Below, piece by piece: positions 15,839 to 64,000 of a DNA stretch of 64,000 bases (positions within the stretch are counted from its first letter, which is position 1; each line of letters opens with the position of its first letter). A program made the translations under genes and the position numbers. The DNA lies in contig SNWL01000006.1 in assembly GCA_004362315.1 (NCBI GenBank), forward strand, positions 62,001 to 126,000, in the 5' to 3' direction. Below the pieces are notes generated by a model that searched no databases, was not told the origin of the DNA, and worked only from the letters and a program-made list of their open reading frames with translations. The DNA is from Mycobacterium sp. BK086. Lineage in GTDB: Bacteria > Actinomycetota > Actinomycetes > Mycobacteriales > Mycobacteriaceae.

Positions 15839-16318
15839 ATGACCGACATGGCTGATGTGGAAGCGATCGAAGCGATCAAACAGGTGAAGTACCGCTATCT
15901 GCGGGCACTGGACACCAAGCATTGGGACGATTTCGCCGACACCCTGACCGAGGACATCGTCGGTGACTACGGGTCGTCGCTCGGCGAGGAGCATCACTTC
16001 ACCAACCGCAAGGATCTGGTGGCGTTCATGGCCAAGTCGATGCCGGCCGGCGTGCTGACCGAGCATCGGGTCACGCATCCGGAGATCAGCGTGGACGGCG
16101 ATGAGGCCGAGGCCATCTGGTACCTGCAGGACCGGGTGATCGTGCCGGAGTTCAATTTCGTGCTGGAGGGCGCGGCGTTCTACCGCGACCGCTACCGCAA
16201 GACGGCCGACGGCTGGAAGATCAGCAAGACCGGCTACGACCGGACCTACGAGATCACGATGTCTACGGAGGCGCTGAACTTCAAGGCGACCGCGGGCGCG
16301 GCGATCGCCACTACTTAG
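15839..16318 (+). CDS. SnoaL/NTF2-like protein (Rv0310c-like)
   Basis: A 159-residue cytoplasmic protein with the NTF2-fold SnoaL_4 layout: an N-terminal helix (EAIEAIKQVKYRYLRALDTK), a catalytic-pocket acid in HWDDFADTLTEDIV, then beta strands with HRVTHPEISVDGDEAEAIWY and RDRYRKTADGWKISKTGYDR. This subfamily includes dehydratases and isomerases acting on polycyclic or lipid substrates, but many members have no known reaction. Size and neighbour (an Rv0309-like gene convergent at the 3' end, 8-bp overlap) match the remembered M. tuberculosis pair Rv0309/Rv0310c. The ATG at 15848 is an alternative start. Confidence 0.75.
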   Translation: MTDMADVEAIEAIKQVKYRYLRALDTKHWDDFADTLTEDIVGDYGSSLGEEHHFTNRKDLVAFMAKSMPAGVLTEHRVTHPEISVDGDEAEAIWYLQDRVIVPEFNFVLEGAAFYRDRYRKTADGWKISKTGYDRTYEITMSTEALNFKATAGAAIATT

Positions 16319-46626: not shown

Positions 46627-46805
46627 GTCGGCCCCCCGGTCACTAATTGTCAACGCCGTCAAAATAGGCGTACGCCTCCCCAACGGCGAGCGCTCGATCA
46701 AAGTTGACAGGAAACTCTCAGGAAGGGTGCTTGGTTCGACAACGCCTCGTAACGGCCCGTCCATGCCGATACAGCAAACCTCACAGGTGGAGGGTTACCC
46801 GTCGT

Positions 46806-47528
46806 TCAGGCCCCTTCAGCCCAGTAGGCCTGGGCCTTGATCGACGTCCGCGGGATGCGGTAGTCCTCGCGCAAGATCTTGGCGACCGCCCGGGTCGTGC
46901 GGTTATCGCAAGCGACCCAACCGAAGTGGTCCTCGGCGTCATAGGCGCCCTCGCTGACCGCCTCCACCAGTGCGGTCTCGGACGCCCTGCCGTCGATCCA
47001 GAACACCTCGGCGTTCTGCGCGACCGGCAGATCCTTGTCATCGTCGTGGACGGCGGCCAGGAACACCGTGGCCGGGACCTCTCCGATCGAGTCCAGCAGC
47101 GAGTTGATCGCCGGCAATGACGCTGTGTCACCGACGATCACATAGCCCGCAGGCGGTGGCGTGGGCAGGGCGAAACTGCTGCCGAGCACGGTCGCCCCGA
47201 TCGTGTCACCGGCCTGGGCCGCAGAAGCCCACCGCGATGCGATGCCGTCATGCAGTGCGAACTCGATGTCGACGGTGTCGCCCGCCGGGTCGGGGTTCAC
47301 CAGCGTGTAGCCCCGCTGGTGCAGCTTCGTTCCATCGGGGAACCACAGTCGGATCCACATCGTCGGATGAACCAGTCGATCGGCCAGCATTCCGCCGGCA
47401 TTGAAGTTCAGCCGCAGGTAGTGCTCGCTGATCTGCTCGCGACCGGTCACGGTCAGTTCGTATTCGCCGGCGCCGAACAGCTTGAGCACGGCGCCCTGCC
47501 AGCCGCGCGCCGGTTTGATGTCCAGCAT
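46806..47528 (-). CDS. Siderophore-interacting protein (ferric-siderophore reductase)
   Basis: A 240-residue flavoprotein of the SIP/ViuB family. The FAD-binding arginine motif is HQRGYTLVNPDP near residue 70, a second block ASRWASAAQAGDTIG follows, then the NAD(P)-side motif GYVIVGDTASLPAINSLL near 130-147, and the usual C-terminus AQAYWAEGA. Such proteins reduce Fe(III)-siderophore in the cytosol to release iron. It starts 13 bp after eccE3 on the same strand, so it belongs to the ESX-3 transcription unit or its tail, adding an iron-release step. Confidence 0.87.
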   Translation of the reverse strand: MLDIKPARGWQGAVLKLFGAGEYELTVTGREQISEHYLRLNFNAGGMLADRLVHPTMWIRLWFPDGTKLHQRGYTLVNPDPAGDTVDIEFALHDGIASRWASAAQAGDTIGATVLGSSFALPTPPPAGYVIVGDTASLPAINSLLDSIGEVPATVFLAAVHDDDKDLPVAQNAEVFWIDGRASETALVEAVSEGAYDAEDHFGWVACDNRTTRAVAKILREDYRIPRTSIKAQAYWAEGA

Positions 47529-47541
47529 GTGGATCCCTTCG

Positions 47542-48405
47542 TCAATTGACCAGGCGCACACCCGATAACGGATGCAGCGCGGCCAGGGCATTGGCCTGCC
47601 GCCCGGTGATCGGTACCAACCCCGGCAGTTCTGCCGTTGGCCGGTCTTCGGTGCGGATCGCCGCGCCCACCCTGATGCGGTCCAGCGGCGACGTTCCCGC
47701 AAGCTCTACCACCGTCCAGGACTCGGTGGCCGCAGCGGTGGCTGCCGCCAGGGCTTCGGGAGTCTTGGCGGTGTAGGTGGTCAGATGGCCACGCGCATCG
47801 GTGACCGATTGCCACCGCTCACGCGCATCCTTCGCCACCAGATCCGGAATCTGATCGGGATCGGCAATCGTTGCCGTCCAGCCGATTTCACGCAGGTGAC
47901 CGATCAGCCGGCGGGCGGCATTCTCAGCGGTCTCCCGCAGCGGTATCTGCGCCGACCTGCCCTGAAGCGCACTCAGATTCCGTGCGCCGCTGACGGTCAG
48001 TCCGATCCAGGTCGTCACATCGGTCTGGGTGGTGTGGGTGGTCACCCGCACCGAATCGCACAGCAGCCCATAGCGATCGAGGTAGCCCGCGAGCAGACGG
48101 TGCGGTAGTTCGCGGTCGCCGCTGTCGACGCGCACCAAGACCGTGGTGACCGCGTCGGCACCCGTGAAGCGCAGATCGGCCGGTGCGGCCTGAATCGGCT
48201 TACGGTGCAGCAGCACGCGAATGCGCTGGCCGATGATCGTGGTGAGGAAGCGGCCACGCCACCACAGCAGTGAGGCCACCACCACCGCGGCGGCGATGCC
48301 GAGCGCCCACCGGTCATTGGTCGACTGGTACGGGTAGGCCAGCACCGCCGACACGACGGCCAGCAGAACAACGGTCAGCCGCCAGCGGCCCGGGATACCG
48401 CTCAT
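47542..48405 (-). CDS. eccE3: ESX-3 membrane component EccE3
   Basis: A 287-residue protein with two N-terminal membrane helices (about residues 9-26 and 33-50) and a cytoplasmic domain with RFTGADAVTTVLVRVDSGDR and TQTDVTTWIGLTVSGARNLS. EccE subunits sit at the periphery of the ESX membrane complex. It is somewhat shorter than the roughly 330-residue M. tuberculosis protein. The start ATG overlaps the mycP3 stop (ATGA). Confidence 0.9.
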   Translation of the reverse strand: MSGIPGRWRLTVVLLAVVSAVLAYPYQSTNDRWALGIAAAVVVASLLWWRGRFLTTIIGQRIRVLLHRKPIQAAPADLRFTGADAVTTVLVRVDSGDRELPHRLLAGYLDRYGLLCDSVRVTTHTTQTDVTTWIGLTVSGARNLSALQGRSAQIPLRETAENAARRLIGHLREIGWTATIADPDQIPDLVAKDARERWQSVTDARGHLTTYTAKTPEALAAATAAATESWTVVELAGTSPLDRIRVGAAIRTEDRPTAELPGLVPITGRQANALAALHPLSGVRLVN

Positions 48406-49790
48406 TCCAGATTCTCCTTACGTCTGCGCGTGACGACGGCGACGGCGGCGACAACGGCCGCGAGCACCGCGGTCCCGACGAACGCCACCGTGCGCGGCGT
48501 GTGATCGACCACTGGCGGCGGTGCCGGCGCCGCAAGGTGTTTGGTGGCTTGGGCCGGTGCGCTGTCGCTGCCGGAGTCGATGGTCCAGGTGAGGGCGCCG
48601 ACCGGATCGAGGGTGCCTGCTCCGACGAGGTTCGAGGGTGCCTGCGCGCCGTTGTGAGCGGTCGCTGTCAGCCGGCGCACCACCTCGTCGGCGTGCATTC
48701 CCGGGTTGCGGCTGCGGACCAGGGCCGCCGAGCCGGCGACATACGCGGCGGCGAAACTGGTTCCGCTCAGCGGTGCCATGCCGCCGTGGCCGTCGGGCAT
48801 CCCGTTGGCCAACCCGCCTGCGGCATCATTGCTCACCGACACGATGTTCTCCCCTGGCGCGGCGATGCCTACCCAGGGGCCGGCCATCGTGAAGTCGGCC
48901 GGTTGCCCTTCGGCGGTCAGTGCCGCGACGGACAAGACGTACGGCTGCCACCAGGACGGCACCGATACCGACGTCACACCTGCCCAGTTGCGGGGATCGC
49001 TCGACTGTCCCGGGGCGCCAACCGGATTCGACGCACATTGCATGCCCGGTTCGCCGGTGGTGGTGGCGCCGGAATTACCGGCGGCCGCGACGATCACGAC
49101 GTCTTTGTCGATCGCGGCGTAACGCAGAGCCGCACCGAGGGTCTGCTGATCGCCGAGCCGGTCGGGTGCCAGGCACGCGGCCGTCGAGATGTTGATGACG
49201 GTGGCGCCCTGGTCGGCTGCCCGCACGACGGCGCGGGCCAGCGTCTCGATCTCCACACTGGCCTGTACCGACGCGAGATCCTTCCCGCCGGCGTTGGGCG
49301 AGAATCTCGGCGAGGTCTGCCGGATCGACAGCAGCCGCGCTCCCGGTGCGACACCGCTGAATCCGTCCGGACCGGGTTGTCCTCCGATGATCCCGGCGAC
49401 GAGCGTGCCGTGACCGTCGCAGTCGGTCAGCCCATCACCTGCGGAAAGATAGTCACCGCCGCCGGTCACGTTCGGCAGCCGCGGTCCCGGCCGCACCCCG
49501 GTGTCGATGATCGCCACCGTCTGGCCCTCACCACGCGAATACTCCGCCGCACCAGCGAGATTGAGCATCGCCTGATTCGCACTCACCGCGCCCGGGTCAC
49601 TACCCGGAAGTGTCCCGGTGGTCGCGCATTCGGAACGCTGGCTCATCCCCCCGGTCGGCCCTGCCGTACCCGGTGGCGGCGATGCCGCGGGGTCGGCAAC
49701 GGGCGGGTCGACGGCACCGGCCACCGGAGCGGTGACCAGCAGCACCACCGCGGCAATCGCGGCGGCCCGCATCATCGATCGAGGACCCAT
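48402..49790 (-). CDS. mycP3: ESX-3 mycosin protease MycP3
   Basis: A 462-residue subtilisin-like serine protease, essentially the length of Rv0291. The ATG at 49790 overlaps the end of eccD3; MMR a few codons later is an alternative. A signal peptide ends near GAVDP. The catalytic triad is complete: Asp96 (VAIIDTGVRP), His127 (DCDGHGTLVAG) and Ser345 (LSGTSFAAAYVAG), with oxyanion Asn in AAAGNSGA. A Pro-rich linker and C-terminal membrane helix (AFVGTAVLAAVVAAVAVV) anchor it. Mycosins stabilise the ESX membrane complex and cleave some substrates. Confidence 0.95.
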   Translation of the reverse strand: MGPRSMMRAAAIAAVVLLVTAPVAGAVDPPVADPAASPPPGTAGPTGGMSQRSECATTGTLPGSDPGAVSANQAMLNLAGAAEYSRGEGQTVAIIDTGVRPGPRLPNVTGGGDYLSAGDGLTDCDGHGTLVAGIIGGQPGPDGFSGVAPGARLLSIRQTSPRFSPNAGGKDLASVQASVEIETLARAVVRAADQGATVINISTAACLAPDRLGDQQTLGAALRYAAIDKDVVIVAAAGNSGATTTGEPGMQCASNPVGAPGQSSDPRNWAGVTSVSVPSWWQPYVLSVAALTAEGQPADFTMAGPWVGIAAPGENIVSVSNDAAGGLANGMPDGHGGMAPLSGTSFAAAYVAGSAALVRSRNPGMHADEVVRRLTATAHNGAQAPSNLVGAGTLDPVGALTWTIDSGSDSAPAQATKHLAAPAPPPVVDHTPRTVAFVGTAVLAAVVAAVAVVTRRRKENLE

Positions 49791-51166
49791 GTGAAGATGC
49801 CGACCAGATAGACCGCCACCGGGATCAACGAGGCATCGAGGCCGGCAGCGAGGAAACCCACCAGCCGGCGCACCGGCAGCGAATACCGTTCGGCCGAAGC
49901 CGTATCCGGGTTGACGGCGACGACCACCCACACCGCCGTCAGCACGCCCAGCGCCACCACAGTCCACAGGGCCGGGACGAAGCGCTGATCCACCACGTAG
50001 GCGACCAGCAGCCCGCCCGTAACCAGGAAAGGCTGGGCCAGCAGCCAGCCCTTGCAGGCCGCGGTGTCCCACACCCTTGCGCGCAGCACTGCCGCGGCGG
50101 CGGCAGCTGCTACCAGATACCAGCCCCAGGCGCCCGGCCCTTCGGCCCGCCCGGCCACCACCAGCGAACCGGCCGAAGACAGCAGCACCGTGCCGGCGAT
50201 CAGACCGGTTTGATGGGCCTCTCCGACGCGCACCCGGCGAGGCAGATCGGCCAGCACCCGAGCCGCAGGGCTCGACGGAGTTGGATCGCCGGGGGCAGGG
50301 ATCACCGGCAGCGGGAAGCGGGCCCACATCGCCGCGAACCCCGGAGCCGACACGGTGATCAGCAACGCCAGCACGATCAGCGCGCACCCCACGGTCAGAG
50401 CTGGCAGCTGCCACAGCGACGTGGCCGCGGCGACCAGTAGAGAACCGACACCGACAACCGCTGTGGCGGTGAACAAACCGACGCCATCCTCCGTCTGGGT
50501 CAGGACGATCAACGACCATGCGGCCACGCCTGCGGCGGCCAGCATCACGTGCGGAGCCCCCCACAGTCCCGGCACGGCCAGCCAGAATGCTGCCGCGATC
50601 GGGAGCAGGGCCGCCGCCGACACCTGGGTGGCAAGCTGTGCCGAACGGGCGCGCAGCAGCAGCCCGGCGACCGCGGCAACGACCGCCAGCGCGCTCACCG
50701 CGTAGACACCGATCACCGAAGCGGTCGCGGCGCGATGGGCAATCGCCACCGCGGACAACGCCACCACGAACAGCGCGGCTGCCAGGCGAGCGCCCAGCTG
50801 CAGGCGATGCGGCCCCCAGGGCCGCGTCCGTGCCGCGGAGAAGATCACCGCAGCGTCGGCAATGTCCTCGACCACACCCGGGGTGCTCGGACCTGCCGGA
50901 ACCGGTTGCAAGGCAAGCAGATCACCATCAACGACACCGACCGTGTCCAAGCTGGCATCCACACTGAACGGCGCGCCGCCGATCGGCGCCAGCGTCATCG
51001 GCGTTGGGATCGACGTTTCTACGTCGGAATCCGGCTGCGGTACCAGCCTTTTCACCGCGGGCAGGATCTCGCGCAGCGGCAGCTCGGCGGGCAGCGCCAC
51101 GTCGGTGATCCGGCCGTACGCCAGCACGGCGACGCGCACGATCGGCAGCACCGGGGTTTCGGTCAT
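49772..51166 (-). CDS. eccD3: ESX-3 membrane channel component EccD3
   Basis: A 464-residue protein with a ubiquitin-like N-terminal domain (about residues 8-90; VRVAVLAYGRITDVALPAEL, VDGDLLALQPV) followed by eleven predicted membrane helices from about residue 125. EccD dimers form the lipid-filled cavity of the ESX pore complex. AAGAGAGAGAAC before the ATG is purine-rich. It lies 18 bp from espG3 and overlaps mycP3. Confidence 0.93.
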   Translation of the reverse strand: MTETPVLPIVRVAVLAYGRITDVALPAELPLREILPAVKRLVPQPDSDVETSIPTPMTLAPIGGAPFSVDASLDTVGVVDGDLLALQPVPAGPSTPGVVEDIADAAVIFSAARTRPWGPHRLQLGARLAAALFVVALSAVAIAHRAATASVIGVYAVSALAVVAAVAGLLLRARSAQLATQVSAAALLPIAAAFWLAVPGLWGAPHVMLAAAGVAAWSLIVLTQTEDGVGLFTATAVVGVGSLLVAAATSLWQLPALTVGCALIVLALLITVSAPGFAAMWARFPLPVIPAPGDPTPSSPAARVLADLPRRVRVGEAHQTGLIAGTVLLSSAGSLVVAGRAEGPGAWGWYLVAAAAAAAVLRARVWDTAACKGWLLAQPFLVTGGLLVAYVVDQRFVPALWTVVALGVLTAVWVVVAVNPDTASAERYSLPVRRLVGFLAAGLDASLIPVAVYLVGIFTWVLDR

Positions 51167-51184
51167 TGTTGTTCTCTCTCTTGA

Positions 51185-52030
51185 TCAGATTGTGTTGCTG
51201 GAGAAGTCGCGCGCCAACGAGGCGGCGGGGAACCAGCGGCCGTCGGGCAGTGTGTCGGTGAGGCGTTCGAGCGCCAGGGCGATCGCGAACGGCGTGCCGG
51301 GCGCGAAGGTCGAGAGCCATTCGCCATCATCGGTGCGTTCCGGGTTCACCAGTACCCGGCCGGCCTCCGCGTCGATGATGCCTACGCCGACCTCGCTCAG
51401 GCTGTGCACGCCGTCGCAGGCCGAGCCTGCGCGCACCTCGACATAGCTGCGCGCACCGGTGAACACCGACCGCACCACCGGGACTGCCGAGGCCGGGAGG
51501 CCCAGGTGGTCCAGGACGGCGCCGAGATCGGCTCCGGCACGCAGCCGTTCGTCGGCGCGCACCCCCACCCTGGTCGGCAGCACGAACTCGGCGAACTTCG
51601 CCGGTGGGCGACCGGGCAGGCCCGCCGTGACGACCGGGGCCAGCAGGGTGGGGTCGTTGATGTCGACGTCGGTGAACGTGACCAGCTCGCCGCTGCGCAG
51701 CGCCACGACGGTGTCGTCCCCGCGGCGGGCCACCAGCCCGCGCAGCAGGTCGGTGCCGTTGCCCCGCACATAGCGCAGCTCCAGCCACCGATCGGGCGCG
51801 CAGGCGGTGCGAATCCACCGTGCCACCTTCGGATCCAGCGAACCGTTGTCCGACATCACCCGCGTGCGGGTCAGTTCCGCGCGCAGCCGGGCCAGTGCCG
51901 CCCCGGCTTCGCGCGGCTCGATCAGGGGCGGCGTGATCGCCAACACCCAGGGGAACGAACCGGCGCCAACGCTGTCGGCGGCGAGCCAGGCAGCATCGGT
52001 GGTCAGCTCGACCGCGTTATGTGCGGCCAA
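51185..52030 (-). CDS. espG3: ESX-3 PE/PPE chaperone EspG3
   Basis: A 281-residue cytosolic protein beginning MAAHNAVELTTDAAWLAADS; the initiator is a TTG, as no ATG or GTG lies in frame between the esxH stop and the conserved start of the protein. EspG proteins bind the helical tip of their cognate PPE (here PPE4-type) and keep PE-PPE dimers soluble and directed to the right ESX system. Conserved PLIEPREAGAALARLRAELT and VLPTRVGVRADERLRAGAD regions are present. It begins four bases after esxH. Confidence 0.93.
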   Translation of the reverse strand: MAAHNAVELTTDAAWLAADSVGAGSFPWVLAITPPLIEPREAGAALARLRAELTRTRVMSDNGSLDPKVARWIRTACAPDRWLELRYVRGNGTDLLRGLVARRGDDTVVALRSGELVTFTDVDINDPTLLAPVVTAGLPGRPPAKFAEFVLPTRVGVRADERLRAGADLGAVLDHLGLPASAVPVVRSVFTGARSYVEVRAGSACDGVHSLSEVGVGIIDAEAGRVLVNPERTDDGEWLSTFAPGTPFAIALALERLTDTLPDGRWFPAASLARDFSSNTI

Positions 52031-52033
52031 GTC

Positions 52034-52321
52034 TCAGCCCCACTTGGCGCCTTCGGCTTGGTCGCGCGCCTGCATCGACAGCGTGTTGCTCTCGTGGGTG
52101 GTGGCCATCGCCCGGTAGGCGCGCACGAGTTCCTCCATGGCCAGGTTCCACTGGGCCTGCCAGGCCTGGTAGGTCATCCCGGTCTCGCCCTGCCAGGCGC
52201 CCTGCAGCGCCTGCTGCTCGGTGGCGATATCGGCGCCGACCGCCTGCAGTGTCCCGGCGTAGCCGGCCATATCACCGGAGTGCGCCATCATGGCCGGGTA
52301 GTTGTACATGATCTGGGACAT
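52034..52321 (-). CDS. esxH: ESX-3 substrate EsxH (TB10.4-like)
   Basis: A 95-residue WXG100 protein, nearly identical in its N-terminus to M. tuberculosis TB10.4 ([20 protein letters not shown]). The hairpin turn has W43-Q-G ([18 protein letters not shown]), and the C-terminus ends GAKWG. It forms a heterodimer with EsxG that is secreted by ESX-3 and is needed for mycobactin-dependent iron use. The ATG overlaps the esxG stop by one base (TGATG). Confidence 0.97.
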
Positions 52322-52614
52322 CAGAAACCTCCGTATGTCGTTGCCGCGGCGGCATCTTCGGCGACGTAGGTGCCGCCGGCCTCGCCGAGGTTGATCTGGG
52401 CGATGTCCAGCAGCGAGTTGACCTTCGCGGCGACCTCGACGAACCGCGCGTGCGCGGCCTGGAAGGCGGCCGACGATTCGCCCATGTGGAATGCCTGGGC
52501 GGACATCGCTGCCTGCTCGGCTTGGGCGATCGTGCTGCGCATCAGCGCAGTCTTGGCGCCGAACGCGGCCTCGGCGGCCACGAGCTGCGGTATGTGGGCG
52601 TCTAGCATGCTCAC
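52321..52614 (-). CDS. esxG: ESX-3 substrate EsxG
   Basis: A 97-residue partner of EsxH. The start is the GTG at 52614 ([20 protein letters not shown]), preceded by GGAGA at good spacing and matching the M. tuberculosis start. Like other EsxG proteins it lacks the WXG tryptophan ([11 protein letters not shown] in the turn) and carries the C-terminal YxxxD export motif as YVAED. The gene is 13 bp downstream of PPE4. Confidence 0.96.
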
Positions 52615-52627
52615 TGCATTTCTCCAA

Positions 52628-54154
52628 TCATTCTCGGTGGGTATCTGTTTCGTCGGGATGGTTGTCCCAGGTGGTCGGCAGCATCGGCGTGGTGGGACGC
52701 TCCCCCGCGTCGGTGGCGAGTTCGGTGAGGCCTGCGGCAGTGACACCGCGGGTTCGGGTTTCGGTGCCGGTGAACCCGATCGGTCCCGCACCGCGATCCG
52801 ACGACGAGGTGGTCGGCTGCGGCGCCGGGTCCGCCGGCGGCCCGGTATCGCTGTCGAGGTCCATGTACTCGTCGCGGAAGCCTTTGTCCTTGGCCCGCGC
52901 GGCACGCCGGCGCTTGGCCCGATCTTTTGCCTGCACCGACGACAGCGCCGCGGCAGCCGGGGCGGCCTCGGGCACAAGGGCTTTGGCTCCGCTTCCCTCG
53001 TTCAGGGTCGGGCCCGGGTCGCCATCGGGATCAGCCGGAGCGACCGCGTAGAAGATGCCCTGCGCCGCGGGTACCGGGGCCGCGGATGCCGCGGGCGCGC
53101 CAGGCGCCGCGGAGGGGGCCGGCGCCGGGGCCGCGGGGGCGGGAGCCGCCGGTGCCGTCGACGAGACCGGCCACATATTGGGCTGTTGGGTTTGCGGCGG
53201 CGCAACGGGTTCGGGCGCAACCTCGGGTACGGGCATATTCGGTTGCAGCGCAAGAAGACCCAGCAATGGGAGCGCAGCGGCCGCAAGGGCGGGAATCAGC
53301 AGCGGTGAGGCGAGCGCAAGCCCCCAGGTGGTCCAGCCGACCGGCTGGAGGATTGCCTGATACACCAGCGCGGACAGCAACGGGCCCCATGTCGCCCACG
53401 CCTGAGCCGGATTGGTCAGGAAGTCGACGATCATCTGCTGGATGCTCTGCACGGGGTGCGTCAGGAAGTCCCAGATCAGATCGCCGTCCGGCAGAGCCTT
53501 GATGTAGGACTCGAGCAGCTGGACCAACCAGTTCGAATTGGTCAGCGAGGAGCCGGATTCGCTGGCCTGAGGCGCCGCGGTCGAGGCAGCCATCGCCGAC
53601 ACCGCCTCGGATCCCGGCAGGACGATCGTCGGAGCGGGCATGGTCTGGGGCGCGGCGGCCAGTGCGGTACCTGCCACCGCCTGATAGACACCCATCGTCG
53701 TGGCGGCCTGGATCCACATCCGGACGTAGTCCGCCTCGTTGACGGCGATCGGGATCGTGTTGATGCCGAAGAAGTTGGTGGCCATCAGCACCCCGTGCAC
53801 GGTGTGGTTGGCCGCCAGTTCGGGCAGCGTCGGCATGGTGGCCAGTGCGGTGCTGTAGGCGGCGGCGGCGGTTTGGTGCTGGAGTGCCGCGCCGGCACTG
53901 TTCGCGCTGGCTTGCTCCAGCCACGCCAGGTAGGGCGCGTGAGCCGCGACGTACTGTTCGGCGCTGGGTCCCTGCCACGAACCGGCCTGGACAGCGGCCA
54001 GGATCTGGGTGAGTTCTGCTGCGGCGGCGGAGTATTCGGTACTCAGGACCTGCCACGCCGAGGCGGCAGCCAGCAGCTCACCGGCACCCGGCCCGGCGCT
54101 CAGCAGCGCTGAGTGGACCTCCGGTGGTGAAGCGAGCCAGACCGGCGCAGTCAT
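52628..54154 (-). CDS. ppe4: PPE-family protein, PPE4-like, ESX-3 substrate
   Basis: A 508-residue PPE protein. The PPE motif is at residues 10-12 ([10 protein letters not shown]) and the WxG-like turn at about 60-62 ([19 protein letters not shown]). A long hydrophobic central region is followed by a Pro/Ala-rich segment and a basic patch ([20 protein letters not shown]), as in PPE4 (Rv0286). It pairs with PE5, whose stop overlaps this ATG (TGATG). In M. smegmatis and M. tuberculosis the ESX-3 PE-PPE pair is tied to siderophore-iron acquisition. Confidence 0.93.
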
Positions 54155-54465
54155 CAGCCTCCCCGTGCGATCAGGTAGGAGGCCGCCGCGGCGGCATCGG
54201 TGGTGGCGTAGCCGGTACCCGACTCGCCCACCGCCGCACCTGATCGTCCCAATTCGGTGACGCCCTGGGCGGCGGTTGCGGTGTGCTCCAGGCCCTGGGC
54301 ACTGAACCCGGCGGCGGTCTGCAGCGAAACCGGGTCGGCGGCAGGGGGCACCACAGCGGTGATCAACGGTGCGGTCGCCGCATGGACGGCAGCCAGCCGG
54401 GCGGTCAGGGCTTCGACGGCGGCACTGGCCGAGACCAGTCCTTCAGGAATGACACGCAGGGTCAT
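54154..54465 (-). CDS. pe5: PE-family protein PE5-like
   Basis: A 103-residue PE protein with Pro-Glu at residues 7-8 ([20 protein letters not shown]) and the two-helix hairpin typical of the family. The C-terminal YxxxD/E secretion signal is YATTD. No extension beyond the PE domain. Its ATG overlaps the eccC3 stop (ATGA), and its stop overlaps PPE4. Confidence 0.95.
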
Positions 54466-57400: not shown

Positions 57401-58454
57401 CCGCGCGCGGCTCAGAATCTGCTGCGGCGGTGTAGATTACCGTGACTCCCGACCATCCCGTCGCCAGCACCGAATCCTCCGGCGCGTGATCGGGATCATC
57501 GACGACGATCAGCAGATGGCGCAGCGGATCGTCGGAGTCGATACCGAACAGCGGACGTTCGGCCAGCGCCGGGCCGATCGACGCGATCAGATCGTCGGTG
57601 GTGGCGGCCAGGTAGCGCGCGGGCCCGCAGCCGTCGAGCTGACCGGGAATATCACTGTGCGGCAACCACTTCAGCCACGACCAGTCCGGGAACTCCAGAT
57701 CGGGGCTGGCCAGTGCAATGCCGAGGGAGGCAGCGTCGTGCCAGGTGACGGCCTGACCAAGCCAGGCGCGCAGCGCTGCGCGAACCTCCGCCGCGTCACC
57801 GACGACGGTGATCCGGGACACCGTCTTGAGGTCGATGCCCCTCGGAGCGTCGCGGACGACGCGCTGAGTATCCAACAGGGCACGTAATGCACTGTGCGAC
57901 ACCGGCTCCAAGTCCACCTCGTCGGCGGTGTCCTTGACCCGCAGCGTGGTGTCCAGCGGCACGGTGTGCAGTCCCGCGCGCAGCACCAGGAAGTCACTGT
58001 CGTGCGGGTCACGCTCCCATTGCCGACGGGTTCCGGGAATCGCGGCCAGCGCCGCCGGGTCGGGGTGCGACCAGAGCAGTGCGGCGCGCTGTGCTGCCGC
58101 CTCGGTACGGACGTTGTCGCGGACCACGGACAGGTAGCGCAAGTAGTCGGCGCGTTCGGCGTCGACCTCCTCGGTGCGCATCTTGTTGTCGGTGCCCCGG
58201 TAGAGCGCCGTCGCGGCGAGCAGCAACACGAAGGGGAAGAACAGCGTCTGCGGTGAGATCAGCCGCATCCCGGTCGCGAACAGCGCGACGATCATGCCCA
58301 CGATCAGGAAGACGATCAGGAACGGCAAAGCCCGGCGCAGCAGCGACGGCGGCACAACACGAGGCAACTCGGGCGGAGCCTCGATCACGATCGCACCCTT
58401 GCGGGTCTTCGGACCGGGCATTCGCCGGCCCGCCTCGAAGATCAGCCGGCTCAT
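54462..58454 (-). CDS. eccC3: ESX-3 motor ATPase EccC3
   Basis: A 1330-residue FtsK/SpoIIIE-type protein, the same length as Rv0284, with EccCa and EccCb parts in one chain. Two N-terminal membrane helices occur at about residues 38-58 and 63-80. Three ATPase domains carry Walker A GMTGSGKS near 480, GGAKSGKS near 832 and GDSKTGKT near 1101. The ATG at 58454 ([20 protein letters not shown]) overlaps the eccB3 stop. EccC recognises the YxxxD/E export signals of Esx and PE partners and drives secretion. Confidence 0.96.
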
Positions 58455-59983
58455 CGGGACTCCTGCACGTTCATGGGCCGGACCGAGTCGTAGGCGACCA
58501 GCGCGTCGGATTGGGACAGGGCCGGACCGGGCGCGAACAGGGTCAGCGCCGACCACGGGACCGGGAGTGGCGGTTGGGTCAGACCCAGTGCGGCGACCGA
58601 CTTTTCGGCGGTCTGGCGATCGCCGCCGATCCCGTACCGAACGCCGGTGTCGGAGATCCAGAACAGTGATCCGGCGGGCGGCGAGGCAGGCTGCTGACCG
58701 ACGGTCTGTACGAAGTAGCCTCGCCCGGGCGGCAGGGCGACCCGGGTCGCGGTGCCCGGGTTGCCACCGCCGACGAGATCAACCGAGCGGATGGTGTCCG
58801 GCAGCGGCAGCGTCGAACCCGACAGCAAGGTCAACGAACTGGTCGCGGCGCCATCGATTTTCGTCCATGCCGCGCAGGTCACCGGAGCATCAGCGGCGGA
58901 GACGAGTTTGACGGGCGTGGCTGGGAACGCTGCCACGTCCAGCTGTGATGACACCGGAAGCCGGGCGATGTCGTCGGCACCGAGGTGCGGCGGCTGCGCC
59001 AGACCATAGGAATTGGCATTGCGCAGCACTGCGGCCAGCACGGGGCTGATCGGCTGCAGACCGTCGGGAAGCACCGCGTAATTCATCGGGGTGGCGTCGT
59101 TGCCGTAAGCGATCACGACAGCGCCGATCGGGGCCGCCACGGGCAAGGGATATCCGGTGGGCAACCCGGCGTCGGGGATCTGCGGCACCCGCAGTGCGGG
59201 CGCTTCCGGAACCGCGTTGAACAGGCCGGGCACGATGGACCGCGGCGCTGGTGCCGCGGCGGGCAGGCCCAGTGCGTCGGTGACAGCCCGGTCCGCGAGA
59301 TCGATGGCGCTGCGCCGGCCATCCCACAGCAACCAGGTGCCGTCGGTGCCGCCGACCAGGATCGCGCGGCCGCCCGCCAGCGCGTCGGCATGCGCGCCAC
59401 CGCTTTCCAGCGGCCCGGCGATCACCGAGGTGCCCGCGGCCTCGGCCGGTCCGCCCGTACCGTCGCACACCGTCCACGCGGCATCGCGAGATGCGCTCTG
59501 CACCATGCGTTCCGGTGCCGCGGGGATACCGATCAGACTGCCTCGGGCGAACTGGTCGAGCTGCTCACTGCTCACTGTGGTGGGGTCCACCGGACGACCC
59601 ACGGCCAGACGTGCCGAGGTCAGGTTCAGCACGGGATGCAGACGGTCGTCGAGGCGGACATACAGCGCGGACGTCGTGCGGTCGGCCAGCACCGGGTCGT
59701 TACCCGGCACGCCACCCGGACGCAGTACTGAGAAGACGAAGCACCCGATCACCGCGGTCACCGCCAGCAGAACACCCATCATCACGGCGCGAGACTGGCT
59801 CCGCAGCGGATCCACCAACATCCGGGTGTCGTGCAGCGCGAGACCGGATGCGATGCGGCGCATGATGAATCGCCAGCCCGTTACCTGGTGGCGGGTGATG
59901 AACCCGCGCCGGTAGGTGACCCGGTCGGGGTTGTCGTTGGCCGGTGTGCGCGAGGTAAAGGACCGGCGATCGTCGTCGCTCAT
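58451..59983 (-). CDS. eccB3: ESX-3 periplasmic/membrane component EccB3
   Basis: A 510-residue protein with a cytoplasmic N-terminus containing [18 protein letters not shown], one membrane helix at about residues 67-90 ([20 protein letters not shown]) and a large periplasmic R-domain region ([20 protein letters not shown]). Two cysteines, in [11 protein letters not shown] and [10 protein letters not shown], probably form the disulfide seen in EccB proteins. Overlaps by four bases at both ends (ATGA) with eccA3 and eccC3. Confidence 0.95.
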
Positions 59984-61815
59984 GCCGGCACCGTCAGACC
60001 GAGGCCAAGCAGCAGCGGCACGACGGCGTTGCGCACATCGGCGGCAGTGATCGTCATCATCTGCTCGTCGGTGAAATCAGCACCGGCCAGGTCCATGTGG
60101 TCCAACCTGAATTCTCTTTCCTCCTCGGAGCGTTCGACGACGTTGCGGACGAACCGCCCGTTGCCCGCGATATCGAGGCTGCGTCGTGACACTCCAGCGG
60201 AGTCGGGGGTCGTCGAGTCGGCCAGCTGTCCGAACAGCTCTTCGAGGTTGTGCAACGCCGCGGGCTCGAACACGCTGTCCCGGTTCGCCGCCATCGACAC
60301 GGCGATGTCGACAAGCTCGACGGCCGAGTAGGACGGGAACACGATGCTGCGGGTGAAGCGTGATCGCAGACCTTCGTTGGTGTCCAGGAACCGGTCGAGG
60401 TCGGCGCGGTAGCCGGCGATGATCACCACGAGGCGGTCCCGGTCGTTTTCCATCCGGGCCAGCAAGGTGTCGATGGCCACCAGGCCGAAGTCGTTCTTGG
60501 CACCCGTCGCCACCAACGCGTAGGCCTCGTCGAGGAACAACACGCCGTCCAGCGCGCTGTCGATGATCGCGTTGGTCTTCGCCTCCGTCTCACCGATGTG
60601 CTGGCCGATCATGTCGGCGCGATGGACCTCGCGGACGTTCTCCCGCTTGAGAAGTCCGAGGCCGCAGTAGATCTTGGCCACCACACGGGCGATCGTGGTC
60701 TTACCGGTTCCGGGCGGGCCTGCGAACACCAGGTGATGGGTGCGCTGAGCCACCGCGAGGCCGCGCTCCTCACGCCGCAAGGCCATCGCCACCGAGCTCT
60801 TCAGCCGGGAAACCTGGTCCTTCACCTCGTCGAGGCCGATGAACTCGCCGAGTTCGCGTTCGGCTTCCTCCAGCAAGGCAGCCTTACGCTCGCGCGCCTC
60901 GGGATCGACGAAATCGTCTGCGGTGGGCTCTGTTTCGACGTCCCACGGGTCGGTGCGGGCGTCGATGCGGGCGGCGGTGGTGGTGGCGATGCCGAAGGTC
61001 GGGTCCGAGAGCGCCTGCTCGACCTGCTCGTTGCCCGGGTTCGCGGCATACAGGTCCTGCAACACGTCGGCGGCGGTGTCATCGTCGCCGTAGGCGCGTA
61101 GCGACAGTGCCCTGGCCAGGGCGCCGTCCAGTGCGGCCATGGCCACCGGACCGTCGGGTTCCTCGAGATGGGACAGTGCGGGAGCGAACATGCCAAGGCG
61201 AGCCAGTGCCACGCCCAACGAGATCTTGGCGGCGTGTGCGAACAGCGGGTCCAGGGCGGTGTCGTTGACCACCGGAGTCAGCAGCTTGACGACATCTGCC
61301 CAGCGCTGCGCCCGATATCGCAGAGCCACGTCGACCCAGCGTGCCTCGTGCCACTCGGGTCGGCGGGCACGCATCTCGGCCACGATCTGGTCGGCGGCAT
61401 GGAAGTCGCCTTCGTTGGCCAATGCCGCGGCATGCGCCAACCGGAAGTCGTCAGCGGTGGTCGCGCGGAACCGCAGATACAGCCCCGTGTCGTAGTCGAA
61501 CCCCAGAGCTCCGGCCGGGAGCTCGATACGCCGCTGCAGCACACCGCTGGTGTCGACGGTGCGAACCACCGCGGACAGCACTTCCAGGGTGGTGCAGCCG
61601 GTGGCCGCCAACCCGGTCCAGGCGTCGCACTGGTCGTAGGCGACCCGGGTCAGCTCGGTGAACGCCCGGCGGGCTGCCGCGATATCCGCGGGTCGGCGCC
61701 GGTCGTAAACGGGCAGGCCAAGGGCCTTGCAGCAGGTCGCGAACCTGCTCACCAGGTCTGCGTCGAGGCGCGCTGCGCGCGCTCTGGGGATCACCACACC
61801 GTTATCCATGTGCAT
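59980..61815 (-). CDS. eccA3: ESX-3 cytosolic AAA+ ATPase EccA3
   Basis: About 611 residues from the ATG at 61815; a GTG at 61848 is in frame but its purine-rich site would overlap it. The N-terminal half is a TPR-type domain (LAHAAALANEGDFHAADQIV and onwards). The C-terminal CbbX-like AAA+ domain has Walker A AGPPGTGKTT near 365, Walker B GVLFLDEAYAL and sensor/arginine-finger elements in FDLDTNEGLRSRF-like DTNEGLRSRFTRS. EccA proteins help handle substrates before or after export. First gene of the ESX-3 operon, directly under an iron-box promoter. Confidence 0.95.
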   Translation of the reverse strand: MHMDNGVVIPRARAARLDADLVSRFATCCKALGLPVYDRRRPADIAAARRAFTELTRVAYDQCDAWTGLAATGCTTLEVLSAVVRTVDTSGVLQRRIELPAGALGFDYDTGLYLRFRATTADDFRLAHAAALANEGDFHAADQIVAEMRARRPEWHEARWVDVALRYRAQRWADVVKLLTPVVNDTALDPLFAHAAKISLGVALARLGMFAPALSHLEEPDGPVAMAALDGALARALSLRAYGDDDTAADVLQDLYAANPGNEQVEQALSDPTFGIATTTAARIDARTDPWDVETEPTADDFVDPEARERKAALLEEAERELGEFIGLDEVKDQVSRLKSSVAMALRREERGLAVAQRTHHLVFAGPPGTGKTTIARVVAKIYCGLGLLKRENVREVHRADMIGQHIGETEAKTNAIIDSALDGVLFLDEAYALVATGAKNDFGLVAIDTLLARMENDRDRLVVIIAGYRADLDRFLDTNEGLRSRFTRSIVFPSYSAVELVDIAVSMAANRDSVFEPAALHNLEELFGQLADSTTPDSAGVSRRSLDIAGNGRFVRNVVERSEEEREFRLDHMDLAGADFTDEQMMTITAADVRNAVVPLLLGLGLTVPA

Positions 61816-61851
61816 CGTTCCGGGGCAGCCGTCGATGCCACCCCCCACTCC

Positions 61852-61870
61852 TTAGGTTTGCCTAACCTGA
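61852..61870 (-). promoter_or_regulatory. IdeR iron box upstream of eccA3
   Basis: TTAGGTTTGCCTAACCTGA matches the IdeR consensus TTAGGTTAGGCTAACCTAA at 16 of 19 positions. It lies 37 bp before the eccA3 ATG and covers the predicted transcription start of the adjacent promoter, the classic place for repression by iron-loaded IdeR. It implies ESX-3 is switched on in low iron. Confidence 0.85.
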
Positions 61871-61872
61871 GA

Positions 61873-61901
61873 AAGTTAGCATTGCATAAGTAGCCTGTCG
61901 A
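61873..61901 (-). promoter_or_regulatory. Probable promoter of the ESX-3 operon
   Basis: On the minus strand TCGACA (61901-61896; five of six bases of TTGACA) and TAACTT (61878-61873) are separated by 17 bases. The expected start near 61866 falls inside the iron box. The -10 element is weak, so this is a candidate only. It sits in the 91-bp gap after mbtH. Confidence 0.45.
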
Positions 61902-61906
61902 GGCCC

Positions 61907-62104
61907 TCAGCGCAGGCTCTTCGGCCGCATGTCCGACCAGTTCTGCTCGACGAACTGCACGCACTCGTCGCGACCGGCCTCGCCGAATACCACCTGCCAG
62001 CCCGCGGGGATCTCGGCGAACGCCGGCCACAGGCTGTGCTGCTCCTCATCGTTGACGAGCACATAGAAACGGCCGTCCTCGGCATCAAAGGGATTGGTAC
62101 TCAC
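61907..62104 (-). CDS. mbtH: MbtH-like protein
   Basis: A 65-residue MbtH-family protein from a GTG at 62104, with a strong AGGAGGA site before it. All family signatures are present: NPFDAEDGRFYVLVNDEEQH, SLWPAFAEIPAGW and NWSDMRPKSL, with the three conserved tryptophans. These proteins bind and activate NRPS adenylation domains; here the mycobactin synthetases. The start overlaps the mbtG 3' end by 20 bp. Confidence 0.95.
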   Translation of the reverse strand: MSTNPFDAEDGRFYVLVNDEEQHSLWPAFAEIPAGWQVVFGEAGRDECVQFVEQNWSDMRPKSLR

Positions 62105-63377
62105 TGTTCCTCCTGGTAGTGGAATGTGCTGGGCGGACGCCTGCTCCCCCACCGAGGACCCGGTCGGACAGCAGACCCAGACAGCTGAGGTTCGGAAAGC
62201 CCGGTCCCTGGGTGAGTCCGGAAAGATTGGGCAGGAACAACTTCGGCTGAACTCCGGTCAATGAGAGGTCGGCACCGATGGCCTGCTGCAGCCGGTCGCT
62301 GGTCAGAAGTCCGTTCAGCCTGACCTCGAGCAGATCCAGCGCGTCCTGGCCCAGCAGCGACAGGAACCACAACGAGTCGGCACCCGAGCCGTCGATCACC
62401 AGATCGAACCCGTGCACCGTCTCCAACCGCTCGCCGTGCCGATCGGTGTGCAGGGTGATCCGGATCCGGTCGTCGGCGGCGACACCGTGCGCGACGCGGC
62501 CACGCAGGTGCCGAATCCGGTCGTCGGCCAACAACGAATCCTGCACGCGTGCCGAGAACACTCCGCGGTCGGTGCGGGCCATCACGTCGCGGCGTTCGGC
62601 GATGGTCAGCCCCGTCCAGTCCGTCGGATCGCTGAACATCCGGTTCTCGAAGAAACTCTCTCCACGGGTGAAGAGGGTCGCCTGCGGAGAGATGACCGTG
62701 ATCGTCGAAACCCGGTGTTTGAAAAGCTCGTTGAGCATCGAAGCGGCGGTTTCGCCGCCGCCGATCACCGCGACCCGTTCGGCGTCGATCCGATGATGAT
62801 CGGCGGCCAGTTGCCAGAACTGGGCAATCGAGAGCACCTGCGGATGCCCGGGCAGCACCGACCTGTCGGGCTGGCCGGGGCCGGTGATCATCACTGCATC
62901 GGCTGTAACAGTGGCGTCGCGGGTGTGCAGCTGCCACGATGGACCGTCCAGCGACAGCCGAATGACCTCGCCCGCAACGATGTTCAGCCCGGCGGCATCA
63001 CCCACCCACCGCAGGTAGCCTGCCCAGGTCTCGTGGGTGGGCGCCGGTTTGCCGCGGTCGACCCACTCGGCGAACCGCCCCGTCGCCACCAGATACGACT
63101 GCCAGCTCAACGTCATCATCCGCTGGTCGAGTTCGGCGTTACGGCCGGGCAGGATCGCCGAGCGGTACGGGAAGCCGACATCCTTCTCCGGGCTGGTCCC
63201 CAGCCGGTGCTGGCCGTCGGTCCAGCCGCCGCCCGCCCGCCAGTTCGCGGCGATCGCGGTCTGCTCGACGGCGATGATGTCGGGTGTGGCCACGCCCATG
63301 TCGCGCAGCATTGCGGCCTTGGCCGCCACCGCAACGGCTTTGGCTCCTGCCCCGAGAATCGCCAGCCGCCCGGTCAT
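62085..63377 (-). CDS. mbtG: Lysine N6-hydroxylase MbtG
   Basis: A 430-residue flavin-dependent N-monooxygenase, very close to M. tuberculosis MbtG (431 residues as I recall): GTSPEKDVGFPYRSA, AVIGGGETAASMLNELF and LTQGPGFPNLSCLGLLSDRV. FAD-binding LAILGAGAKAVAVAAKA is at residues 4-20 and the NADPH motif GGGETAAS is mid-protein. It hydroxylates lysine side chains, providing the hydroxamate iron ligands of mycobactin. The ATG at 63377 overlaps the stop of the NRPS upstream. Confidence 0.95.
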   Translation of the reverse strand: MTGRLAILGAGAKAVAVAAKAAMLRDMGVATPDIIAVEQTAIAANWRAGGGWTDGQHRLGTSPEKDVGFPYRSAILPGRNAELDQRMMTLSWQSYLVATGRFAEWVDRGKPAPTHETWAGYLRWVGDAAGLNIVAGEVIRLSLDGPSWQLHTRDATVTADAVMITGPGQPDRSVLPGHPQVLSIAQFWQLAADHHRIDAERVAVIGGGETAASMLNELFKHRVSTITVISPQATLFTRGESFFENRMFSDPTDWTGLTIAERRDVMARTDRGVFSARVQDSLLADDRIRHLRGRVAHGVAADDRIRITLHTDRHGERLETVHGFDLVIDGSGADSLWFLSLLGQDALDLLEVRLNGLLTSDRLQQAIGADLSLTGVQPKLFLPNLSGLTQGPGFPNLSCLGLLSDRVLGGGAGVRPAHSTTRRNSEYQSL

Positions 63378-64000
63378 CGGGGCACCTCGGCCAACTCCCG
63401 GAGGGTGTCTTGCCAGATAGACTGCAGCGCGGCAACATCCGCGTCGTCAAAGATGTCGGGAACGGTTCGCCACTGGGTGACCAGTTTCCCACCGGCGATC
63501 GCCGCGACGAGGGTCAGTTCGTGGCGGACCGCGATGTTCGGCTCGGTCATGATCGGCACCCCGGCGAGCAGACCCCGGTCCAGTAGCGAGCCGGCGTCCA
63601 GGTCGAGCCTGCCGAGATAGTTCAGCAACACCTGGGGTCCCCGAAACCCACCGAGTCGTGCGGCGGTGTCGGGTCGCGCATACCGCAGCAACGCGAAGTC
63701 GGTTGGTTCCCCGGCGATCTCGGGGATCGGTTCACCCGGCCGGATCCGCAACGGATAGATGGCACTCAGCAGGCCGACGGTGTCGTCGGCGGCACCGCTG
63801 CGCCCGTGCGTTTCCAGCGCCACCAGTGGAACCGGGCCGCCCTCGCCACGCTCGTCGCGCCAGCGCGTGATCAGCCGCGCACAGGCATCGGCCAGCACAT
63901 CTTGGATCGGTACCTGGGCGCGCAACAATCCACTCGTGACGTCGTCCTCAGTGACCGATACGGTGATCGCCAGGTCGCCGAATCGGTCCACCCGTGGGCG
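63374..64000 (-). CDS. mbtF: 3' end of mycobactin NRPS, probably MbtF (cut by window edge)
   Basis: The last 208 residues of a large nonribosomal peptide synthetase; the frame stays open to the window end. The visible portion is the C-terminal lobe of a condensation/epimerization-type domain, with the NYLG motif in VLLNYLGRLDLD and TVGLLSAIYPLRI upstream. Order NRPS-mbtG-mbtH with an ATGA overlap to mbtG identifies it as MbtF, which ends in such a domain in M. tuberculosis. Adenylation and carrier domains lie outside the window. Confidence 0.85.
   Translation of the reverse strand, partial: RPRVDRFGDLAITVSVTEDDVTSGLLRAQVPIQDVLADACARLITRWRDERGEGGPVPLVALETHGRSGAADDTVGLLSAIYPLRIRPGEPIPEIAGEPTDFALLRYARPDTAARLGGFRGPQVLLNYLGRLDLDAGSLLDRGLLAGVPIMTEPNIAVRHELTLVAAIAGGKLVTQWRTVPDIFDDADVAALQSIWQDTLRELAEVPR

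Follow-up and report, generated by a model that had tools for sequence, protein, structure and literature searches.

ESX-3 loci are known from M. tuberculosis (Rv0282-Rv0292), M. smegmatis (from MSMEG_0615 on) and M. abscessus (MAB_2224c-2234c). ESX-3 secretes PE5 and PPE4, proteins thought to aid the use of mycobactin-bound iron (PMC9505556); the way in which ESX-3 supports this use is described as not yet fully understood (PMC9769883), and the export of mycobactin is ascribed to MmpS4/MmpS5 (PMC3561183). These accounts contradict the original prediction for the present locus, in which ESX-3 served as the export apparatus of the siderophore. In M. abscessus, iron boxes lie on both the ESX-3 and the mbt loci (PMC9505556), and three mycobactin genes have been described in the ESX-3 cluster of Segniliparus rotundus (Newton-Foot et al., 2016, PMC4791881). 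The presumed rare genomic link does join two functionally tied systems, but a like linkage had already been published with S. rotundus. Linkage of siderophore genes and ESX-3 is not new in kind; for the Mycobacterium rhodesiae clade, however, the literature searched (mainly open-access main texts) gave no record of it, and no description of mbtH beside eccA3 in any Mycobacterium.

The linkage was analyzed in a stretch of 64,000 nt (the window), whose minus strand carries the following features:

46806..47528, minus strand: SIP, stand-alone siderophore-interacting FAD protein, 240 aa (Pfam SIP 2.2e-21, FAD_binding_9 1.5e-11)
47542..48405, minus strand: eccE3 (NCBIfam T7SS_EccE 6e-44)
48402..49772, minus strand: mycP3, at one of several possible starts (NCBIfam mycosin 1e-109; longer open frame 48402-50564)
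49772..51166, minus strand: eccD3 (Pfam EccD and YukD)
51185..52030, minus strand: espG3 (Pfam EspG 1.8e-50)
52034..52321, minus strand: esxH, 95 aa (Pfam WXG100 7e-17)
52321..52614, minus strand: esxG, 97 aa (solved EsxG chain 2kg7, E 4e-42)
52628..54154, minus strand: ppe4 (Pfam PPE 2.9e-61)
54154..54465, minus strand: pe5 (Pfam PE 3.6e-20)
54462..58454, minus strand: eccC3, ATG at 58454 assumed, open frame from 58556 (NCBIfam EccCa and EccCb above cut-off)
58451..59983, minus strand: eccB3 (NCBIfam EccB 1.5e-164)
59980..61848, minus strand: eccA3 from its first possible start, ATG at 61815 and 61809 also possible (NCBIfam EccA 2.9e-239)
61852..61870, minus strand: IdeR-like iron box before eccA3 (2 mismatches to the 19-bp consensus)
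61877..61902, minus strand: promoter-like block CTCGACA-N14-TGCTA, 4 bp past the mbtH stop (conserved across linked loci)
61907..62104, minus strand: mbtH, 65 aa, overlapping the mbtG end (Pfam MbtH 2.7e-28)
62085..63377, minus strand: mbtG, lysine N-hydroxylase-like (Pfam Lys_Orn_oxgnase 1e-8)
63374..64000, minus strand: 3' end of an mbtF-like NRPS gene (open frames and domains)

The predicted order, mbtF-mbtG-mbtH, box, eleven ESX-3 genes and flavoprotein, was found in full, each element at its place and on its strand, with the ESX-3 genes spanning 47542-61848 in the expected order from eccE3 to eccA3. An early 197-aa open frame had suggested an EsxG-EsxH fusion; reading both frames gave two ordinary genes. 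The Pfam search of EsxG returned no match. The assignment to ESX-3 is supported by EccA3 matches of 67-94% across the genus, by a single EccC of this type in the genome, the next EccC being at 40%, and by the match of EsxG to the solved EsxG chain. The genome holds one ESX-3 and one MbtG (sole match at E 1e-40). SIP starts 13 bp past the eccE3 stop and, with both domains present, belongs to the SIP family; IrtA and ViuB are among its 13 solved matches, the nearest chains being the N-terminal part of the mycobactin importer IrtA (E 5e-38). It matches the siderophore-interaction part of IrtA and ViuB-type proteins over nearly its full length, but it is a stand-alone gene that ends the ESX-3 unit.

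Beyond the window, the mbtF-like NRPS gene runs on to C4:129660 of the genome (whole protein 1428 aa), and to its right follow mbtE, mbtB, mbtA (in the opposite orientation) and mbtI, the series reaching to roughly C4:142643. The rightward extension, proposed as a check for mbtA-E, thus recovered the rest of mbtF, mbtE, mbtB, mbtA and also mbtI, but neither mbtC nor mbtD. Contiguity of the siderophore genes (mbtI, A, B, E, F, G, H) with ESX-3 was borne out.

Compared with the known ESX-3 loci, the same eleven kinds of gene and an iron box before eccA3 are present, and LigD-fadD2-fadE6 homologues lie nearby, as in 14 of the 21 unlinked loci read. Here, however, mbtH stands directly upstream, SIP follows eccE3 in most linked loci and the LigD block is on the opposite side. 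The siderophore genes share with the M. tuberculosis cluster mbtI, A, B, E, F, G and H with matching domains, as well as IdeR-like sites, one at mbtI and one in the mbtA-mbtB gap, which are weaker in this genome (4 and 5 mismatches, respectively). They differ from it in that no mbtC was found, no gene separates mbtB from mbtE, the second A-T pair of MbtE is complete and the cluster abuts ESX-3. S. rotundus likewise has mbtH directly before eccA3 on the same strand with an IdeR-like site in the unit, but there the two genes overlap, the site lies ahead of mbtH and eccA3 points away from eccB3; the 38 kb read yielded only mbtA, mbtI and mbtH. In M. abscessus-type genomes, mbt and ESX-3 share one chromosomal region and SIP sits beside eccA3 (G088, G050), but 18-19 kb separate the loci, which lie on opposite strands; in G088, ABC-transporter-like and FAD-protein genes lie in between and MbtC is located some 145 kb away.

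In 22 of 145 Mycobacterium genomes, mbtG lies 240-300 bp from eccA3; 12 of the 145 had been added for their similar MbtG, and without them linkage amounts to 10/133. Of the other genomes, 4 have the two loci separated by 18-19 kb, 106 by 504 kb or more, and 13 carry them on different contigs. A separation of more than 500 kb or different contigs hence applies to 119/145, in keeping with the presumed rarity of the link. The suggested search for mbtH near eccA3 did find further cases, all in one clade of ESX-3 copies comprising M. rhodesiae, M. sphagni, M. vinylchloridicum and kin; among named eccA3 loci, 13 of 15 are linked. An assembly join at 61850-62100 is excluded, since a further 21 assemblies show the same junction, including five that consist of a single contig (G172, G322, G136, G295 and G241). 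SIP is the least constant part (present in 10 of the 13 linked loci read downstream, missing in 3), and a second ESX-3 copy, without an iron box, occurs in 4 of the 22 linked genomes.

Our favored explanation, which we consider probable, is an iron-acquisition island in which a mycobactin-type operon abuts ESX-3, with one origin, mainly vertical descent and one loss as a unit. The siderophore operon would consist of mbtI, the divergent mbtA and mbtB-E-F-G-H, adjoining the ESX-3 operon. At low iron, IdeR would release the boxes at mbtI, in the mbtA/mbtB gap (both weak sites) and before eccA3. The NRPS proteins, judging from their domains, would then make the siderophore, ESX-3 would export PE5-PPE4 and EsxG-EsxH, needed for siderophore-bound iron as known in relatives, and SIP, related to the IrtA N-terminal part, would probably free the iron. 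Most probably this layout has a single origin that predates the M. rhodesiae-M. sphagni radiation, ESX-3 remaining in its usual surroundings of LigD-fadD2-fadE6 homologues apart from a local switch of side, and the mbt operon ending up directly upstream of it.

A single origin is consistent with the EccABC tree, in which the linked copies are monophyletic (support 1.0); this tree holds copies of the ESX-3 type only and is therefore, taken alone, no test of orthology to ESX-3 versus other ESX systems. The rpoB DNA tree (46 genomes, including 21 of the 22 linked ones, without G286 and G320, whose matches were broken) places the linked hosts in one clade with G009 and G098, at a weak support of 0.689 and with an inner node of 0.277; in the rpoB protein tree, G284 and G098 are separated from the remaining hosts. 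Distances for EccABC and MbtG correlate (Spearman 0.87, 210 pairs), and both agree less with rpoB (EccABC 0.62, MbtG 0.71), so the block may have been exchanged to some extent within the clade. In the MbtG tree, the linked clade joins the copies in G105, G108, G117 and G222 (1.0) and those of the abscessus type (0.902), not the canonical ones, which makes replacement of mbt rather than its relocation possible. Recent transfer of the whole package is unsupported, the hosts lying together in the rpoB DNA tree, though this grouping is weak and MbtG falls with a different set of copies. Across 396 genomes, EccA3 and MbtG occur together in 313, EccA3 only in 18, MbtG only in 4 and neither in 61, a comparison made by hand from two tables in which incomplete genomes inflate the last class and species are not independent samples.

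The relative G098 has neither EccA3 nor MbtG, and its sequence joins the two flanks of the block at L186:13091/13131, about 40 bp apart; apparently the block was lost as a unit. G009 has ESX-3 and SIP at the site without mbt, which fits both a gain of mbt after its split and a loss of mbt in G009. The linked loci share their flanks, with the LigD-fadD2-fadE6 homologues nearby and the LigD block on the other side. With mbt and ESX-3 adjoining in one clade, two cooperating systems are inherited as one block.

The strongest alternative is that mbt and ESX-3 became neighbours through a neutral rearrangement that was then frozen in a single clade, unselected and with both operons acting as elsewhere, an explanation to which we give somewhat less than even chances. 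It draws on the wide separation of the loci in most surveyed genomes, on the retained promoter-like block before eccA3 and on parts that are otherwise ordinary. It sits less easily with the constant distance of 240-300 bp across 22 genomes, and with the mbtH-eccA3 junction in S. rotundus and the loose linkage in four abscessus-type genomes, which imply that the pairing recurs or has persisted.

Persistence could also mean that Segniliparus and Mycobacterium inherited the linkage from their common ancestor, after which it loosened in the abscessus group, broke in most other lineages and survived here. In S. rotundus (G402), mbtA and mbtI are nearby, mbtH and eccA3 overlap by 11 bp and an IdeR-like site (5 mismatches) lies 16 bp before mbtH; in G431, of the same genus, mbtF-mbtG lie about 3.5 kb ahead of eccB3, and G088 and G050 have SIP, mbtI, mbtA and mbtG within 19 kb of eccA3. 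We nevertheless regard such retention as unlikely, as the rpoB DNA tree does not place the rhodesiae clade at its base and the 14 of 21 unlinked loci with LigD, fadD2 or fadE6 homologues upstream of eccA3 are free of mbt, so that many separate losses would be needed.

Concerning transcription, a scan of the 64-kb window for sites with 5 or fewer mismatches to the IdeR consensus found the eccA3 box alone, and 20 random 35.3-kb sequences of matched neighbour frequencies contained 0 such sites. All 22 linked loci have the box within 2-3 mismatches and also the promoter-like block, which is found in 17 of 28 other loci examined. A consensus scan at the junction revealed no sigma-70-like promoter, and the block itself has no sigma-70 consensus match. 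Read from these sequence elements, mbt and ESX-3 are suggested to be two abutting iron-controlled units, not one operon; with block and box before every linked eccA3, a shared transcript is not needed. A single operon from mbtH to eccA3, with ESX-3 transcribed mainly by read-through from the mbt promoter, would fit the shared strand, the 58 bp from the mbtH stop to the first eccA3 start, the lack of a terminator-like site in 61500-62300 and the gene overlap in S. rotundus, but the conserved elements in between and the occurrence of the block before unlinked eccA3 genes make it improbable. Under the two-unit arrangement, each operon probably keeps its own iron-controlled start, to which read-through from mbtH may add.

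The siderophore pathway itself departs from the canonical set. At E 1e-100, the 22 linked genomes gave no stand-alone MbtC match, only large-PKS frames and none in G284, with only 36 of up to 58 candidates scored in several genomes; no gene lies between mbtB and mbtE in 9/9 loci read. The set therefore differs from the M. tuberculosis mbt, and the missing mbtC suggests that the linked-clade species make a different mycobactin. A product other than a mycobactin-type siderophore, as these gaps would allow, is improbable for the NRPS cluster given a MbtI salicylate synthase well above its cut-off (TIGR03494, 535 bits vs 325), MbtA, B, E, F and G that are 50-72% identical to the set of the mbtC-bearing G168, pockets shared with G168 (first MbtE pocket at 7/9 sites read, MbtF pocket 9/9), the locus being the only MbtG locus of the genome, and mycobactin-like clusters reported in all 73 genomes compared, M. 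rhodesiae included (PMC10517868). MbtA resembles DHB-AMP ligase, with a score under the cut-off of that model, and shares 64.6% identity with the G168 MbtA. The NRPS genes mbtB, mbtE and mbtF, the hydroxylase gene mbtG and mbtH are all present, as in a mycobactin cluster.

The second A domain of MbtE has no Asp at the amino-group site. It was rejected as a mark of the linked clade, as six unlinked genomes with MbtC keep it intact too (G337, G320, G110, G222, G060 and G143); by alignment, only remnants are left in G168, G195, G394, G366, G316, G307, G153 and G207. In a speculative extension, doubtful when its parts are taken jointly, the locus would be a self-contained iron island evolving as a unit, with a PKS-less mycobactin pathway, its own ESX-3 and an IrtA-like flavoprotein, the intact second MbtE A domain would load a hydroxy acid directly, and the linked ESX-3 copy would be the iron-dedicated one wherever a second, box-less copy exists (4/22).

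For the biology of ESX-3, the linked clade offers natural contrasts, in environmental species, as to which of its functions depend on the siderophore: members with a second, box-less ESX-3 copy, the block-less G098, and G009, which has ESX-3 and SIP without mbt.

At the right end of the window, the genome of Mycobacterium sp. BK086 (6.93 Mb, 11 contigs) carries mycobactin and ESX-3 genes side by side:

46806-64000, minus strand: a stand-alone siderophore-interacting flavoprotein (SIP), the eleven ESX-3 genes, mbtH, mbtG and the 3' end of an mbtF-like NRPS gene.

Reading beyond the window (stretches L003 and L031) completed the mbtF-like protein (1428 aa) and added an MbtE-like protein of 2165 aa (C-A-T-C-A-T, in which MbtE is extended by a complete second A-T), an MbtB of 1168 aa, mbtA on the opposite strand, and mbtI. 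As to the question whether mbtA-E lie here as well, mbtA, mbtB and mbtE are thus present together with mbtF and mbtI, and mbtC and mbtD are absent from this side. The genome has a single ESX-3 (the next EccC is only 40% identical), one MbtG and two MbtH copies, the second of which adjoins a large NRPS on contig 5. To the left of the window, an open frame of 1228 aa (L030:5689-9375, minus strand; genome C4:55689-59375) carries a condensation domain.

In a scan of species-named genomes, mbtG-mbtH was found directly upstream in 13 of 15 eccA3 loci, the exceptions being M. komossense and the second copy of M. pinniadriaticum. MbtG was then searched in 396 Mycobacterium genomes, and the positions of MbtG and EccA3 were compared in 145 of them: 133 that carry both genes and are assembled in no more than 11 contigs, and 12 fragmented genomes picked for a close MbtG. 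The contiguity proposed in the original prediction was borne out, with the same junction in 22/145 genomes (10/133 and all 12 added), where mbtG and eccA3 lie 240-300 bp apart on the same strand; these are M. rhodesiae, M. sphagni, M. vinylchloridicum and their kin. Four genomes (G050, G088, G092 and G220), which we infer from gene content to be abscessus-type, have the genes 18-19 kb apart on opposite strands; the spacing is at least 504 kb in 106, and the loci are on separate contigs in 13. Both EccA3 and MbtG occur in 313 of the 396 genomes, EccA3 alone in 18, MbtG alone in 4 and neither in 61 (Fisher p 3e-50, a value that ignores kinship and incomplete genomes). In one of the MbtG-only genomes (G188), EccC3 lies near a contig end, so this status probably reflects a contig break. 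In a set of 73 genomes, four near-complete ones (G002, G054, G055, G098) have neither an ESX-3 EccA3 nor MbtG.

In the EccABC tree the linked sequences are monophyletic (support 1.0), and the G009 copy is their sister (0.985). An rpoB DNA tree of 46 genomes united G009, G098 and 21 of the 22 hosts in one clade (0.689; inner node 0.277), and the rpoB protein tree placed G284 and G098 away from the other hosts. Within the clade, distances (Spearman, 210 pairs) correlated at 0.87 for MbtG versus EccABC, 0.71 for MbtG versus rpoB and 0.62 for EccABC versus rpoB. As judged from these sequence comparisons, the linkage most likely has a single origin and was inherited mainly vertically. In the MbtG tree, for which a long Segniliparus branch served as root, the clade copies group with those of G105, G108, G117 and one of two G222 copies, followed by the abscessus-type copies, which counts against a simple relocation of the mbt genes.

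The chromosomal site was compared by means of neighbouring genes that we take to be LigD, fadD2 and fadE6. Of 21 unlinked ESX-3 loci read over 12 kb upstream of eccA3, 14 have a homologue of at least one of these genes there, and G168, G056, G117 and G153 have all three. In 12 further linked loci read downstream, and in G009, at least part of this group lies beyond eccE3 or SIP. ESX-3 thus appears to have kept its chromosomal surroundings while switching sides locally. At this site G009 carries ESX-3 and SIP; a PPE gene precedes its eccA3, and a genome search found no MbtG. In G098, the sister of the linked G284 (0.999, rpoB DNA tree), genome searches found neither EccA3 nor MbtG; here the LigD side is joined within about 40 bp (L186:13091/13131) to sequence found beyond mbtI in G241. 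The simplest reading is that the whole block was lost once, along with about 4.7 kb of sequence beyond mbtI. In BK086, the gap between SIP and the LigD-like gene, which is shorter in the relatives read, encodes a protein of 879 aa (44125-46764, minus strand) in which cadherin-like and beta-propeller domains were recognised.

All 22 linked loci share a promoter-like block (CTCGACA-N14-TGCTA) and an iron box with at most 3 mismatches to the IdeR consensus between mbtH and eccA3. The block occurs in 17 of 28 other eccA3 loci. Across all 28, the closest match to the iron box differs at 2 positions in G009, at 4-6 in 21 loci (in many of them overlapping the block itself) and at 9 in six. Scanning 61500-62300 against a sigma-70 consensus revealed neither promoter nor terminator, so the block is called promoter-like for its conservation only. 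This negative scan slightly lowered our confidence in the overall reading of the block. A single operon, with eccA3 transcribed mainly by read-through from mbtH, gained a little in standing and is considered improbable. An mbt operon beside an ESX-3 operon, each with its own iron-controlled start, is the likely arrangement. BK086 has weaker IdeR-like sites at the mbtI start and between mbtA and mbtB. A second ESX-3 copy in four linked genomes (G018, G172, G184, G241; L105-L108; EccA3 74-76% identical) showed neither promoter-like block nor iron box, and close homologues of LigD, fadD2 and fadE6 were not found in the upstream stretch read. Further sites with 4 mismatches lie at L004:11297-11315, 15678-15696 and 15847-15865, one of them upstream of a flavin monooxygenase gene, and the iron regulon may thus reach beyond mbtI.

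Among solved structures, SIP is closest to the N-terminal part of the mycobactin importer IrtA. SIP lies directly 3' of eccE3 in 10 of 13 linked loci and was not found after eccE3 in G172, G004 and G018; in G088 and G050 it sits beside eccA3, facing away.

The MbtC of G168 served as query in 44 genomes. Stand-alone matches of 71-100% were found in 14 (G168 itself included) and of 50-52% in G117, G050, G088, G108, G105 and again G222. Among the candidates scored (in several genomes 36 of up to 58), the 22 linked genomes gave no stand-alone match, but at most fragments of large PKS frames, and mbtB is directly followed by mbtE in 9/9 linked loci read. In the second A domain of MbtE the catalytic motifs are intact, and Leu replaces the Asp carried by amino-acid-loading A domains; judging by these residues, it might stand in for the PKS by loading a hydroxy acid. 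The domain is likewise retained in six unlinked genomes that have MbtC, which leaves hydroxy-acid loading at the level of a hypothesis. Beyond mbtI, a small extra biosynthetic cluster (L004:1426-8215, plus strand; genome C4:143426-150215) encodes an ABC transporter pair, a glycosyltransferase and a one-module A-T-TE protein; it is also present in G289 and G172, and missing from the regions of G293, G004 and G053 that were read.

EccC3 matches at E ≤1e-300 occur in 30 of 301 family genomes and 2 of 31 genera, Mycobacterium and Segniliparus. Newton-Foot et al. (PMC4791881) report three mycobactin genes within the ESX-3 of Segniliparus rotundus. In this species (G402), as in the linked mycobacteria, mbtH lies next to eccA3 with an IdeR-like site; in contrast, the two genes overlap by 11 bp, the site (5 mismatches) precedes mbtH by 16 bp, and mbtI and mbtA adjoin mbtH. 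In a second Segniliparus genome (G431), which has two ESX-3 copies, mbtF-mbtG lie about 3.5 kb upstream of the eccB3 of one of them. The kind of linkage is therefore already known from Segniliparus and its component parts are mostly ordinary; in the mycobacteria studied here, the linkage is real, extends across the clade and makes biological sense.
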